Assembly: GCF_000600975.2 (NCBI RefSeq)
Contig: NZ_KK088649.1
Location: forward strand, 456,702 to 520,701
Direction of reading: 5' to 3'
Source of the DNA: Limimaricola hongkongensis DSM 17492
GTDB lineage: Bacteria > Pseudomonadota > Alphaproteobacteria > Rhodobacterales > Rhodobacteraceae
DNA length: 64,000 nt
Part shown: one piece after another, positions 48,884-53,935 of the stretch
Layout: every line of letters starts with the position of its first letter
How positions within the stretch are numbered: the first letter of the stretch is position 1
Made by a program: the position numbers and the translations under genes
Notes under the pieces: model-generated
Database searches by the model: none
What the model saw: only the letters and a program-made list of their open reading frames with translations
Told to the model about the DNA's origin: nothing

Positions 48884-48919
48884 GTCGTGTCTCCTGTCCC
48901 GTCCACCCGACGGGGATTG

Positions 48920-49125
48920 GGTTGCGTCACGCAGGGCCGGTCTCCTGGCTCGCGGGTCGTGACGTGCCCCCACCTTCCCGGGATCGCTCCCAGTGGTTTC
49001 GGGGGGACGCTCGCCGCTCACAGTCGCGGGGGCGGCTGCGGCCACGGGCCTCCTGACTGGATCGGCCCCTTCCGCATTCCCGATTTCCTCCCCTCGGGCG
49101 CTTCGCGCCGCATCGGGGAACCTTG
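48920..49125 (-). promoter_or_regulatory. Cobalamin (AdoCbl) riboswitch upstream of cbtB
   Basis: On the minus strand the leader contains, in order, GGTTCCCCGATG, GGGAATGCGG, a CGCGACTGTGAGCGGCGAG segment, CCACTGGGAGCGATCCCGGG, AAGGTGGGGGCACGTCACGA and the B12 box AGCCAGGAGACCGGCC (48935-48950). This is the standard order of the cobalamin riboswitch core. The element ends about 40 bases before the cbtB start, so it likely represses cbtB-cbtA when cobalamin is plentiful, by hiding the RBS or by termination. The rest of the 422-bp gap, between the riboswitch and smc, shows nothing further. Confidence 0.95.
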
Positions 49126-49305
49126 CTCCTCCGTTCTGCGCCGCTCTGCCGGGCCGCGTCAAGCGCGAAGGCCACGGGCCCGGTCGCGGCCCGCAGCGCG
49201 TCCAAACGCGGCGGAAGCCCGCGTTCCAAGGGCCGCGCGCGTTGACTCCAAGCCCCCCCGTCGCGCATAGGCGCGCGGACAAGAGCGCGAATGAGGGCGG
49301 CTTTC

Positions 49306-52300
49306 ATGCGATTCTCCCGGCTGCGGCTGAACGGCTTCAAGAGCTTCGTGGACCCGACCGATCTGGTGATCGAGGACGGGCTCACCGGCGTGGTGGGCCC
49401 CAATGGCTGCGGCAAGTCGAACCTTCTGGAGGCGCTGCGCTGGGTGATGGGCGAAAATCGCCCCACCGCGATGCGCGGCGGCGGCATGGAGGACGTGATC
49501 TTCGCCGGTGCCGCGACCCGTCCCGCGCGCAACCACGCCGAGGTGACGCTGTCGATCGACAATGCCGAGCGGCTGGCGCCCGCGGCCTTCAACGATGCCG
49601 ATGCGCTGGAGATCGTGCGCCGCATCACCCGCGATCTCGGTTCGGCCTACCGGCTCAACGGCAAGGATGTCCGGGCCCGCGACGTGCAGATGCTTTTCGC
49701 CGACGCCTCGACCGGCTCGCAATCGCCCGCGCTGGTGCGGCAGGGCCAGATCGCCGAGCTGATCAACGCCAAGCCGACCTCGCGGCGGCGCATCCTCGAA
49801 GAGGCGGCGGGCATTTCCGGGCTTTACCAGCGGCGCCACGAGGCGGAGCTGAAGCTGCGCGGCGCCGAGCAGAACCTGTCCCGCGTCGATGACGTGGTCG
49901 AACAACAGGCCGCGCAGCTCGCGACGCTGGCGCGGCAGGCCCGCACGGCGGCGCGCTACCGCGAGATCGGCGAGGCGCTGCGCGGGGCCGAGGGGCTGCT
50001 CTTGTGGCTGCGCTGGAACGCGGCGGAGACGATGCGCGGCGCCGCCGAGGAAGAGCTGCGCGAGATGGCGCAGGCCGCGGCCCGCGCCGACGGGGGCGCG
50101 GCCAAGGCGGTCGAGACGCGCACGGCCTGCGAAGCCGCGTTGCCGCCGCTGCGCGAGGAGGCGACCGTCGCCAACGCCGTGCTGAACCGGCAGGAGACCG
50201 AGCGCGACCGGCTGCTCGATCAGGAAAAACGCGCGCGCGGCGCGATCCGGGCGCTGGGCGCGCGGATCGAGCAGCTCGACCGCGACATGGAGCGCGAGAG
50301 CGTGCTCGACCGTGACGCGGGCGAGACGATGCGCGCGCTCGAAGCCGAGGCCGACGAGCTGGCGCAGGCCGGGCAGGGCCATGAGGCGCGGCTCGCGCAG
50401 ATCGAGGAGACGGCGCGCGAGGCGGGCGAGATCCTCAGCGAGGCCGAGCGCGCCCAAGGGCAGCGCACCGAGGACACCGCGCGGCTGGCCGCGCGGCACC
50501 AATCGGCGCAGCGGCTCGTGGCCGAGGCGAAAAACGCGCATCGCGTCGAGCGCCGAGGCCGCCGAACAGGCCAAGGCCCAGCTCGACGCCGCCCATGCCG
50601 CGAGCGCCGAGGCCGAAACCGGCCTGACGGAGGCCGCGGAGGCCGACACGCAGGCGCGCGCGCGCGCCGAGGCCGCCGAGGCCGATCTCGCGCAGGCCGA
50701 AACCGCGCGCGCCGAAGCGCAGGGCGCCGAAGCCGATGCGCGCGCCATCCGGTCGAGCGTCGAAGGCGAGGCCAAGGCGCTGCGCGCCGAGGTGGCGGGG
50801 CTGGCGCGGCTGGTCGAGCGCAGCGACGACACGGGCCGGCAGCTCATCGACCTGCTCAAGGTCGAGCCGGGCTTCGAAAAGGCGCTGGGCGCGGCGCTGG
50901 GCGACGATCTCAAGGCGCCGCTGGTGGAGGCGCGCGGCGCGACCGGCTGGGCCGAGCTGCCGGGCTACGATGCCGATCAGCCGCTGCCCGAGGGGGCCGC
51001 GCCGCTGGCATCGGCCGTCGCGGCGCCGGGGCTTCTGGGCCGCCGCATCGCGCAGGTCGGCGTGGTCGCGCGCGATCAGGGCGCCGCGCTGCAGGCCCGG
51101 CTCATGCCCGGACAGCGTCTGGTCAGCCGCGAGGGCGACCTGTGGCGCTGGGACGGCTATCGCGCGGGCGCCGAGGATGCGCCCTCCGCCGCGGCGCTTC
51201 GGCTCGAACAGGTCAACCGGCTCGCCGCGTTGCGCGCGGAGCTGGAGGTGATCGAGGCCCGGCTCGACGATTTGAGCGATCTGCATGCAGAGGCCGCCGC
51301 CACGCTGGAGCAGGCGCGCGAGGCCGAAACCCGCGCCCGCGCCGCGCGCCGCGCCGCCGAGGCCGCGCTGTCGGAGGCGGCGAGGGGGCTCAGCCGTGCC
51401 GAGGGCGAAAAGGGCCGTGCCCAGACCCGGCGCGAGGCCGCGACCGAGGCGATGGATCGCCACGAGGCCGAAGGCCGCGCCGGGCGCGAGGCGCTGGTCG
51501 AGGCCGAAGCCGCCGCCCGTGATCTCGACGATCTCGACGCCGCGCGCGACGCGGTCGAACAGGGCCGCCAATTGGTCGAGGCGGCGCGGATCACCATGAT
51601 CACCCGCCGTTCGGAGGCCGACGAGCTGCGCCGGAACGGCGAGGCGCGCGCGCGGCGCTCTGACACCGTGGCGCGCGAACTCGACGGCTGGCGCCAGCGC
51701 GCCGAGACGGCGCGGGGCCGGGTCGGCGAGCTGACGGCGCGGCGCGCCGAGACCGAGGCCGAACTGGAGCGGGCGCGCAGCCGCCCCGAGGCGATCTTTG
51801 CCGAACGGCGCACGCTGGATGCGGGCATCAGCGAGGCCGAGGCGCGGCGCGATGCGGCCACGGAGGCCCTGCGCGCCGCCGAGGGCGCGCTTGCGGATGC
51901 GCAGGCCGCCGAGCGCGCCGCCGAGCGGGCGGCCTCCGAGGCGCGCGAGCGCCGCGCCGCCTCGGAGGCGCGCGCCGAAGCCGCCCGGGCCGCCGTCACG
52001 CAGGCCGCCGAGCGGATCGCCGAGGTGCTTGAAACCACGCCCGAGGCGCTGTTCGAGACGCTCGATATCGGCGCGCTGGCCTTGCCGCCCACCGACGAGG
52101 TCGTATGGCCCGCGTCGCCAAGCTCAAGCGCCAGCGCGACGGGCTTGGCTCGGTCAATCTGCGCGCCGAAGAAGACGCCGCCGCGATCCGCGAGGAGCAT
52201 GACGGGCTGGTCGGCGAAAAGGCCGATCTCGAAGAGGCGATCCGCACCCTGCGCACCGGCATCAACAGCCTCAACCGCGAAGGGCGCGAGCGGCTGCTTG

Positions 52301-52764
52301 CCGCCTTCGCGCAGGTGAACGAGAATTTCGGCACGCTGTTCACGCATCTGTTCGGCGGCGGCGAGGCGCGGCTGACGCTGGTCGAGAGCGACGACCCGCT
52401 CGAGGCGGGCCTCGAGATCCTGTGCCAGCCGCCGGGCAAGAAGCTCTCGGTGCTGTCGCTGCTGTCGGGCGGCGAGCAGACGCTGACCGCGCTGGCGCTG
52501 ATCTTCGCGGTGTTCCTCGCCAACCCGGCGCCGATCTGCGTGCTCGACGAGGTCGACGCGCCGCTCGACGATGCCAACGTGACGCGGTTCTGCGACCTTC
52601 TGGACGAGATGGCCCGCCGCACCGACACCCGTTTCCTGATCATCACCCATCACGCGGTGACAATGGCGCGGATGGACCGGCTCTACGGCGTCACCATGGG
52701 CGAGCAGGGGGTGAGCCAGCTGGTTTCCGTCGATCTGCGCCGCGCCGAGCAGATGGTAGCCTAA
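49306..52764 (+). pseudogene. smc: Chromosome segregation protein SMC, with two compensating frameshifts
   Basis: SMC is the condensin ATPase that organises chromosomes with ScpA and ScpB. MRFSRLRLNGFKSFVDPTDL starts the protein (GAGGG 8 bases upstream). Walker A is GPNGCGKSNLL near residue 32. The middle is Ala/Glu/Arg-rich coiled coil with a hinge around ELPGYDADQPLPEGA. The end has the signature [15 protein letters not shown], Walker [15 protein letters not shown] and IITHHAVTM. It is read in three pieces: frame 1 to ~50530, frame 2 to ~52100, frame 1 again to the stop. One extra A in the AAAAA run at 50530-50534 and one missing base near 52100-52104 explain this. Corrected length is ~1152 aa, normal for SMC. 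Sequence error is likely, as smc is rarely lost. Confidence 0.88.
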
Positions 52765-52809
52765 CGCCTTGTCTTCTGGGCTTTTCTTTCAGCCCGAAGC
52801 AAGTCGTGA

Positions 52810-52829
52810 TATAAGAACATAAAGAGAAC
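52810..52829 (+). promoter_or_regulatory. Candidate LexA (SOS) operator overlapping a -10 element
   Basis: GAAC-N7-GAAC occurs at 52815-52829 (spacer ATAAAGA), the reverse complement of the GTTC-N7-GTTC box bound by LexA in alphaproteobacteria. It abuts TATAAG at 52810-52815, which with TTTCAG 17 bases upstream could be a sigma-70 promoter, so LexA binding would cover the start of transcription. A chance match is expected roughly once in a window of this size; its position before a small ORF raises its weight. Confidence 0.5.
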
Positions 52830-52868
52830 ACTTGAGGGGTGGTCTCTTATTTGGCAAGACTTCCCCCT

Positions 52869-52892
52869 GCCGCGACACTTCGCGGCGAGGGG
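52869..52892 (+). promoter_or_regulatory. Hairpin sequestering the RBS of the 29-codon ORF
   Basis: GCCGCGA (52869-52875) and TCGCGGC (52880-52886) pair around the loop CACT. The stem can extend with CCCCT (52864-52868) pairing to AGGGG (52888-52892) across a one-base bulge. The second strand includes part of the Shine-Dalgarno sequence GGGGAGG (52889-52895) of the following TTG-started ORF, so folding could limit its translation. Confidence 0.5.
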
Positions 52893-52904
52893 AGGTGATA
52901 TGCA

Positions 52905-52994
52905 TTGACCGAAGCCAGCTACCGTAAGTGGATGGTGGGGATCGCAGTGGCGACGCTCGTGATGACCGCCATCCGTCTCTGGGTCGGAAAGTAA
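52905..52994 (+). CDS. Putative small single-pass membrane peptide (29 aa), possibly SOS-regulated
   Basis: A 29-codon ORF with TTG start, preceded by GGGGAGG at a 9-base distance. After a polar N-terminus (TEASYRKW) comes one hydrophobic helix (MVGIAVATLVMTAIRLWVG) and a terminal Lys. The nearest ATG (52900) reads only Met-His-stop and cannot encode it; an internal ATG at 52932 would give a 20-residue version. A candidate LexA box sits about 75 bases upstream. Size, topology and possible SOS control resemble the 29-residue Caulobacter division inhibitor SidA and hydrophobic SOS toxins such as TisB; no sequence homology is claimed. The 355-bp gap after smc otherwise holds only hairpins. Confidence 0.45.
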   Translation: MTEASYRKWMVGIAVATLVMTAIRLWVGK

Positions 52995-53011
52995 GTCCCG
53001 GCCAAGAGAAA

Positions 53012-53037
53012 CCCCGCAGAGCGGCCACTCTGCGGGG
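53012..53037 (-). terminator. Intrinsic terminator of the glutaredoxin/MauE gene
   Basis: A perfect 10-bp stem CCCCGCAGAG/CTCTGCGGGG closes a 6-base loop. On the minus strand it is followed by TTTCTCTT, so it ends the transcript of the gene at 53120-53857. On the plus strand there is no U-tract, but the hairpin could still protect the 3' end of the small-peptide transcript. Confidence 0.75.
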
Positions 53038-53119
53038 TCCAGATCAGGGATGAGACATCATCGACCGATCACTACCGTATGGCCGGTATAATGTGCATCG
53101 GCTGAGAAATTGTAAAGCC

Positions 53120-53857
53120 TCAGGCCACGAGCCGCACCAGCATCCACAGCCCCATCCCGGCCATCATCAGGTTCTCGGTGAGCGAGATGAACCCCAGCGG
53201 CACGTTGCTGTCGCCGCCGACGCAGGCGCATTTCAGCTCCCGCCTGTCGATCCAGACCGCCTTGATCACCGACACCGCGCCCACCGTGCCGATGAACAGC
53301 GCCAGCGGCGCCGAGACCCATGTGAGCAGCAGCGCGGTCATCAGCACCCCCGCCACCGCTTCGGCCCAGGGGTAGACATAGGCGTAGGGCACCCATTTCT
53401 GCGCCAAGAGGTCGTAGTTCAGAAAACCGTTGGTGAACCCCTCCACGTCGCGCAGCTTCTGCAGCGCCAGCAGGCACATCGAGATCGAGATGAACCAGCC
53501 GATGGTCTGCCAGGCGAGAAAGCTGCCCAGCGCCACCCATGTCACCGCGATGGCGAGCGCCAGCCCCATGCCGAAGATGGCGATCACCGGCGCATAGGTC
53601 GTGCCCTCGGGCTTGGCCGGGCGCATGTCGAAATGCGCGCGCAGATCGTCATAGCCGCCGATGCGCTTGCCATCGATGAAGGTCTGCGGCGTGGTCTTCA
53701 CCCCGTGCTCGCGCATGAAGGCGTCGGTCGCCTCGCGCGTGGTGAGCGGGTGATCCTCGACCTCGAACCCCCTGGATTTCAGCAAATGAAGCGACTTCTG
53801 CCCGAACGGGCAGAGGTGCTTGGGCATCGACATGCGGTAGAGCTTGGCTTCGGCCAT
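53120..53857 (-). CDS. Glutaredoxin domain fused to MauE/DoxX-like membrane domain
   Basis: A 245-residue redox membrane protein. Residues 1-75 are a glutaredoxin fold with LYRMSMPKHLCPFGQKSLHL (CPFG: a single active-site Cys rather than CPxC), then TTPQTFIDGKRIGGYDDL (cis-Pro and GGxDD glutathione site). The remainder has about four transmembrane helices of the MauE/DoxX type (WFISISMCLLALQKLRDVEG, YVYPWAEAVAGVLMTALLLT). A CACVGGDSNVPLGF loop near the C-terminus carries two more Cys. It may pass electrons or disulfides between cytoplasm and membrane. AGGAG lies 10 bases before the chosen start; the longer frame to 53929 is less likely. Confidence 0.88.
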   Translation of the reverse strand: MAEAKLYRMSMPKHLCPFGQKSLHLLKSRGFEVEDHPLTTREATDAFMREHGVKTTPQTFIDGKRIGGYDDLRAHFDMRPAKPEGTTYAPVIAIFGMGLALAIAVTWVALGSFLAWQTIGWFISISMCLLALQKLRDVEGFTNGFLNYDLLAQKWVPYAYVYPWAEAVAGVLMTALLLTWVSAPLALFIGTVGAVSVIKAVWIDRRELKCACVGGDSNVPLGFISLTENLMMAGMGLWMLVRLVA

Positions 53858-53935
53858 GGCGGGGGCTCCTCTCGACTGGGCTTGCCCCCGCAACGCCCCT
53901 CCAGCGCGGGAAGGTTCCCCGCGCGTCACATCGCG

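Follow-up and report, generated by a model that had tools for sequence, protein, structure and literature searches.

In the alphaproteobacteria, promoters of the LexA (SOS) regulon are marked by GTTC-N7-GTTC/GAAC-N7-GAAC, and in Escherichia coli the hydrophobic peptide TisB is SOS-linked and controlled at the RNA level. DinQ, also an SOS-linked hydrophobic peptide of E. coli, is likewise reported to be under RNA-level control (PMC3567139). Two proteins of Caulobacter crescentus are relevant here (PMC4211646): SidA, with 29 residues, one membrane helix and LexA-type control, and DidA, with 71 residues, which is SOS-independent and activated by DriD. SidA is a division inhibitor that binds FtsW. 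The peptide that we describe resembles SidA in its 29 residues, its one predicted membrane helix and, in Limimaricola, its probable LexA-type control. It differs from SidA in its non-AUG start and in its upstream region outside Limimaricola, where the 105 nt that precede the Shine-Dalgarno (SD) sequence contain an exact LexA box in 0/74 copies. With DidA it would share the character of a small single-helix membrane protein tied to damage control, DidA differing in its 71 residues and its SOS-independent activation by DriD. From TisB and DinQ it is set apart by a conserved helix face and, again, by the lack of an exact box outside Limimaricola.

The locus lies in a stretch of 64,000 nucleotides from Limimaricola hongkongensis DSM 17492 (the window). 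A first-pass annotation had proposed there an SOS-controlled membrane peptide, composed of a GAAC-N7-GAAC box, a 5' hairpin, a TTG-started ORF of 29 codons and a strong 3' hairpin, and each of these parts is found where it had been placed. Neither the ORF nor the box is remarkable by chance: 29-codon ORFs are abundant in the window, so that ORF length alone says little, and the box occurs once in the window against 1.12 expected from shuffles and 44 times genome-wide against 42 for a reversed control pattern, with no excess. A box significant in itself is ruled out by this chance-level frequency, and the reality of both elements thus rests on their conservation.

In order to assess conservation of the gene (52905..52994, + strand), a protein search of 295 Rhodobacteraceae genomes was performed and a profile, A1, was built from 17 relatives. 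The profile matches the peptide of the window with an E-value of 1.1e-15, is matched in 8/8 Limimaricola genomes, and finds 18/295 genomes of the family at E <= 1.1e-8 (next best 8.7e-4), a patchy distribution. In a class-level sample of 385 genomes (E <= 0.001) the sole true match was the window's own genome, the match in G412 covering 15 residues inside a 592-aa frame and being no true relative. Scanning genomes with a DNA pattern returned 80 matches, spread over 78 stretches; of these matches 78 are relatives, which fall under 23 genus names. Because a match must have GGAGGYGA, 5-6 nt of spacing, a BTG start and TGGATG, the pattern-found set is biased towards these features. Six matches were dropped, two unrelated (L148, L177), three with a broken frame (L105, L114, L131) and one at a contig end (L174), and the 74 pattern-found copies kept were joined with 8 loci from additional genomes into a set of 82, which includes one copy with a stop at codon 26 (L109_2248); the N/S ratio was computed from the other 81.

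The peptide is exactly 29 aa long in 69/82 copies, and W9 and M10 are invariant in the 82 copies, forced by the pattern in the pattern-found ones, and also in the 17 members of A1. The uncorrected N/S ratio in frame is 0.35 for seven Limimaricola species, 0.45 for eight and 0.47 for the 81 copies, compared with 0.99-1.23 in the two shifted frames; purifying selection acts on the ORF in the TTG frame only. The first-pass annotation had named loss of the reading frame in close relatives as evidence against its proposal, and the frame is kept in 8/8 Limimaricola. We regard the peptide gene as almost certainly a real gene, judging from these sequence comparisons. It apparently belongs to a family of Rhodobacteraceae that was not previously described: none of the 17 members has a match at curated cut-offs (best E 0.0092 in Pfam and 0.032 in NCBIfam), no PDB chain matches the 17 scanned members up to E 10, and no title or abstract opening within the literature searched, which mostly excluded subscription journals, describes the peptide. 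The gene is widespread, of 29 codons and mostly with a CTG start, and ordinary gene callers likely miss genes of this kind.

Tandem units of the gene are present in L109 and L118 (a Roseovarius and Sinisalibacter), with starts 363 and 327 nt apart, and each unit has its own hairpin, SD and terminator-like hairpin, with one Roseovarius copy stopping at codon 26. This shortened copy and the broken frames of L105, L114 and L131 point either to sequence errors or to a gene that some strains can do without. A phage origin was rejected, one viral contig fitting the DNA pattern yet encoding no relative, as was a plasmid origin, with 0 plasmid matches at E <= 1.

Downstream of the gene, a computed fold gives a terminator-like hairpin, CCCCGCAGAG-CGGCCA-CTCTGCGGGG (53012..53037, +), which has no T-run on the + strand and is T-rich on the - strand; in other peptide loci inspected by eye, a similar hairpin comes after the stop codon. 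Convergent with the peptide gene is a gene (53120-53929, -) that joins a glutaredoxin domain to a MauE-like membrane domain, and the hairpin may be shared by the two genes. A leader peptide for a downstream gene was discarded as an explanation, as the terminator-like hairpin intervenes and the next gene in the window lies on the other strand.

The start codons were counted in the 24 protein-search loci only, because the pattern-found set forces BTG, and the start in each was placed from TGGATG: CTG occurs 14 times, TTG 8 times, GTG twice and ATG not at all. The eight Limimaricola loci are those with TTG, and there an in-frame TGA three codons 5' leaves the TTG as the sole available start. An extended SD, GGAGGTGA (52891..52898, + in the window), is present in 77/82 loci, and the start codon follows the SD at 5 nt in 68 copies, at 6 nt in 13 and at 4 nt in 1, with the spacing of 5-6 forced by the pattern in the pattern-found copies and GGAGGYGA likewise in 74/82. 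The maintenance of a strong SD and a weak start codon across many genera suggests a tuned dose.

The 5' leader hairpin (52868..52887, +; 8 bp with the 4-nt loop CACT) has pairs that form in 85-96% of the 82 loci, and its 3' end lies at a constant 3 nt before the SD. As for the promoter and CtrA counts below, positions were taken relative to the SD, with no alignment gaps. Two pairs covary: -20/-7 is CG in 56 copies, TA in 16 and GC in 5 (96% paired, against a shuffle mean of 70% and maximum of 78%), and -17/-10 is GC in 41, AT in 32 and CG in 4 (94% paired, against a shuffle mean of 64% and maximum of 72%), while the remaining six vary too little to clearly exceed the shuffles. The folding energy at the locus is low (z -5.17). 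Such a structure is what would be seen if the transcript were mainly a regulatory RNA and the peptide secondary; against this, the codon-level selection is clear and the peptide length fixed, and we consider this reading very improbable. Rfam gave 0 matches at gathering score at the peptide locus, the 4 found at E <= 5 all lying below gathering.

Judged from the position of the -10 element, the RNA 5' end should be at or near the leader hairpin. The claim that this hairpin traps part of the ribosome-binding site fares differently from the hairpin itself, which is borne out by covariation, since the outcome flips with the leader length assumed, and trapping was therefore set aside as an established feature. 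With a leader of 23 nt the computed SD openness is 0.40-0.60 in the eight Limimaricola (median 0.46 in the 74 others), and with 31 nt it is 0.01-0.19 in 7/8 Limimaricola, 0.62 in L. pyoseonensis, and in the 74 other copies has a median of 0.24, with 58% below 0.3. The same values bear on whether the peptide is an SOS-induced, TisB-like toxin, held down by its leader or by an antisense RNA and depolarising the membrane. The mostly closed SD of the longer leader would suit such a toxin, as would the small hydrophobic peptide, the structured leader, the non-AUG start and the tandem copies in L109 and L118, whereas the shorter leader leaves the SD about half open.

The peptide itself speaks more against a toxin. 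The single hydrophobic stretch seen in the first reading of the ORF holds up, with a median best 15-residue hydropathy of 2.58 in 81 peptides, and a membrane helix is predicted. Within this stretch, conservation peaks at 100 degrees in the 81 copies, a height reached in 0.38% of shuffles, in 0.8% when the pattern-forced M10 is left out, and in 2.7-4.4% in the 18 protein-found copies. The residues that stand out are V11, A14, L18, L25 and G28, and R24 is kept in 75/82 copies. Conservation on one face of the predicted helix suggests a specific membrane partner, and would favour such a partner over a toxin, as it is unlike what we would expect of a pore-former; we consider the toxin improbable.

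The LexA-type box of the window (GAACATAAAGAGAAC, 52815..52829, +) is found in exact form in 8/8 Limimaricola, so that the box too is conserved in close relatives, where its absence would have spoken against the first-pass proposal. It lies at -90 from the TTG in seven species and at -77 in L. pyoseonensis, whose first GAAC corresponds, by eye, to their second. Across the seven species that can be aligned, the half-sites are invariant in 8/8 columns, against 3/7 in the spacer and 31/53 in the rest, which is mildly unusual among close species (31/53 to the eighth power, about 1%) and suggestive, but not overwhelming. Upstream of the box, TCGTGAT (52804-52810) is also invariant in the seven alignable Limimaricola. 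In L. cinnabarinus LL-001 (L123) the box is GAACATAACAAGAAC, the reverse complement of GTTCttgttatGTTC, which is reported as the LexA box of ccna_01391/ccna_02355, SOS-/damage-induced genes of Caulobacter (PMC12700426).

In the window's own genome five repair-type genes carry the motif in the same sense, at their longest ORF start or ahead of it: recA, lexA, a radical-SAM repair gene (L017), a Y-family polymerase-like gene (L214) and a gene for a helicase of the PcrA/UvrD type (L218). They are the 5 repair-type genes among 11 proteins family-scanned from 30 + 14 loci near GAAC-N7-GAAC. The first three are above their model cut-offs; the polymerase-like gene gives a weak match (E 1.5e-12) that stays below its cut-off, as does the helicase, which is truncated where its stretch ends. 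All five have A as the first spacer base, and 6/8 Limimaricola peptide boxes have G or C there. A single region of the same genome (L029/L030, G000:C6:217872-218000) carries two GAAC-N7-GAAC sites 114 nt apart. A study of D. shibae distinguishes GTTC and GAAC classes of LexA site (PMC6473078).

It might be that the gene is real and the Limimaricola box a chance occurrence, merely inherited, or the site of another regulator, so that there is no SOS control. Chance alone would give one box per 64 kb, and 7/8 species have an alignable common upstream region; on the other side, the box is present in 8/8 species with fixed half-sites and a variable spacer, its place is shifted in L. pyoseonensis, and one species' box is identical to that of Caulobacter. 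We find this explanation unlikely, and LexA control of the peptide gene in Limimaricola likely. The promoter element TATAAG of the first-pass annotation fell away, as it is not kept in other Limimaricola species. A promoter candidate picked by eye is better kept and sits downstream of the box, with a predicted -35 element TTGAGG (52832..52837, +), of which TTGAG is common to all eight Limimaricola rows, a 17-nt spacing and a predicted -10 element CAAGAC (52855..52860, +).

Outside Limimaricola the upstream region is different. Of the 74 copies none has an exact LexA box in the 105 nt before the SD and 7/74 have one within one mismatch, so that SOS control, proposed for Rhodobacteraceae, is not a general property of the peptide in this family. 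Instead, TTAA lies at -61/-60 (30 times) or at -50/-49 (28 times), 11 nt apart, in 56/74 loci, with TTAA at both fixed sites in just 2/74, so that mostly one half is good and the other degenerate. The site of the cell-cycle regulator CtrA is given as TTAA-N7-TTAA, with half-sites also described, in two reports (PMC6180460, PMC9437464). The full motif is found within one mismatch in 40/74 copies, against 1.3 expected from GC-matched windows taken from the same loci and 2.4 from intergenic windows, and within two mismatches in 68/74, against 9.7 and 6.5, respectively, the intergenic windows being mutually overlapping and of G+C 0.60 compared with 0.52 in the peptide windows. Exact motifs number 3/74, against 0.9 expected. 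Genome-wide, TTAA-N7-TTAA shows no consistent excess in G000 (6 versus 8) and 8 further genomes (G178, 10 versus 22), and by eye no CtrA-like site was seen in the Limimaricola upstream regions.

A TAnnn[CT] element is present at -35/-34 from the SD in 44/74 copies, and the TTAA pair is about 13-15 nt upstream of this cluster, which makes it overlap the -35 region, the arrangement known from CtrA-activated promoters; the CAAGAC of Limimaricola is one base off the offset of the cluster. The likeness to such promoters consists in a TTAA-N7-TTAA or a TTAA half-site near -35, and the difference in that mostly one half is intact here. Roseovarius tolerans, Sulfitobacter and Celeribacter are among the relatives that have the CtrA-like site. 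We consider CtrA control of the peptide gene outside Limimaricola rather probable. Overlap of LexA and CtrA targets is described in several cases in D. shibae (PMC6473078).

When 57 smc ends are placed on a tree, Limimaricola with its LexA state forms one side of a branch, with support 100/100, and 46/49 of the non-Limimaricola entries have a CtrA-like site within two mismatches. The root was set at the midpoint for drawing, and the direction of change therefore rests on the wide spread of the CtrA-like state. SOS control looks genus-specific, laid on a gene that elsewhere is probably under CtrA. As both sites repeat with a period of 11 nt and have near-equal half-sites ((T)TAAC versus GAAC), a few mutations could interconvert them. 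The locus may present a natural regulatory switch, in which the peptide, the leader and the start layout are constant and a cell-cycle-type site is exchanged for a damage-response site. It is a doubtful proposition, taken as a whole, that the gene, with its non-AUG and mostly CUG start, encodes a cell-cycle brake and underwent promoter rewiring between CtrA and LexA in Limimaricola; if true, one brake would answer to the cell cycle in most genera and to DNA damage in one.

We envisage an independent small gene, equipped with a promoter, a structured leader and a terminator of its own, that would yield a 29-residue single-pass peptide of the inner membrane. In Limimaricola, LexA bound at the -35 region or immediately 5' of it would repress the promoter until its damage-triggered cleavage, and in other genera the gene would most likely be driven by CtrA through the TTAA-N7-TTAA-like sites at the -35 region. 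Non-AUG initiation after a very strong SD probably sets a modest dose, and the peptide would pack its conserved helix face onto a membrane partner. The likeliest partner would belong to the divisome or to a cell-cycle signalling chain, since LexA and CtrA alike come into play when the cell cycle has to be held or timed, and the peptide would be a SidA-like brake. A division or cell-cycle target, taken by itself, is possible on the strength of this analogy, which points to the divisome only indirectly, although we would not presume it. The overall reading, in which a peptide driven by SOS or CtrA restrains division or the cell cycle from within the membrane in the manner of SidA, is tentative, with nearly even chances, and makes the peptide a candidate for the SulA/SidA job in these Rhodobacteraceae.

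Small membrane proteins such as KdpF, CydX and AcrZ act as accessory subunits, and the peptide could similarly serve a transporter, an enzyme or a sensor kinase of the membrane, as accessory subunit or as modulator, with the gene and its regulation unchanged, in which case damage and cell-cycle control would adjust envelope physiology or motility. The conserved helix face and R24, which suggest a specific partner, fit this, as does the presence of the gene at varied sites, next to smc, next to a FabI-type gene or in an rplS-trmD neighbourhood, so that no neighbour names the peptide's partner. However, joint SOS and CtrA control would be more usual for cell-cycle functions, and no transporter gene is present among the 10 neighbours scanned at loci without smc; we take an accessory role as unlikely, if worth keeping in mind beside the SidA-like brake.

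The position of the locus beside smc was part of the original proposal and is borne out in 65/78 pattern-found copies, which have smc in the same stretch, but is not required. The 13/78 copies without smc in the stretch examined, some of which end close by, include loci with other neighbours, and together with the FabI-type neighbours they weaken a functional linkage to smc. In L104, L128, L154 and L042 the downstream, convergent neighbour is a FabI-type enoyl-ACP reductase gene, with strong matches to FabI models that are yet below the curated cut-offs, and the L106 copy is near rplS-trmD.

In the window, the usual upstream neighbour is the 3' part of smc (C-terminal 219 codons; 52105..52764, +), which matches TIGR02168 with an E-value of 3.1e-96 and a score below the model's full-length cut-off, because the sequence is a fragment. 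The window's smc as a whole (49188-52764) is broken, with 49188-49307, 49303-50532 and 50702-52102 in different frames, followed by 52105-52764. Elsewhere the frame is of 1155 aa in L. pyoseonensis and above 1150 aa in most listed relatives, and the completeness of the window's genome is 92.85; assembly indels are the likeliest cause of the breaks. Just upstream of smc, on the opposite strand, lies a Cobalamin riboswitch (48918-49140, -; 84.6 bits).
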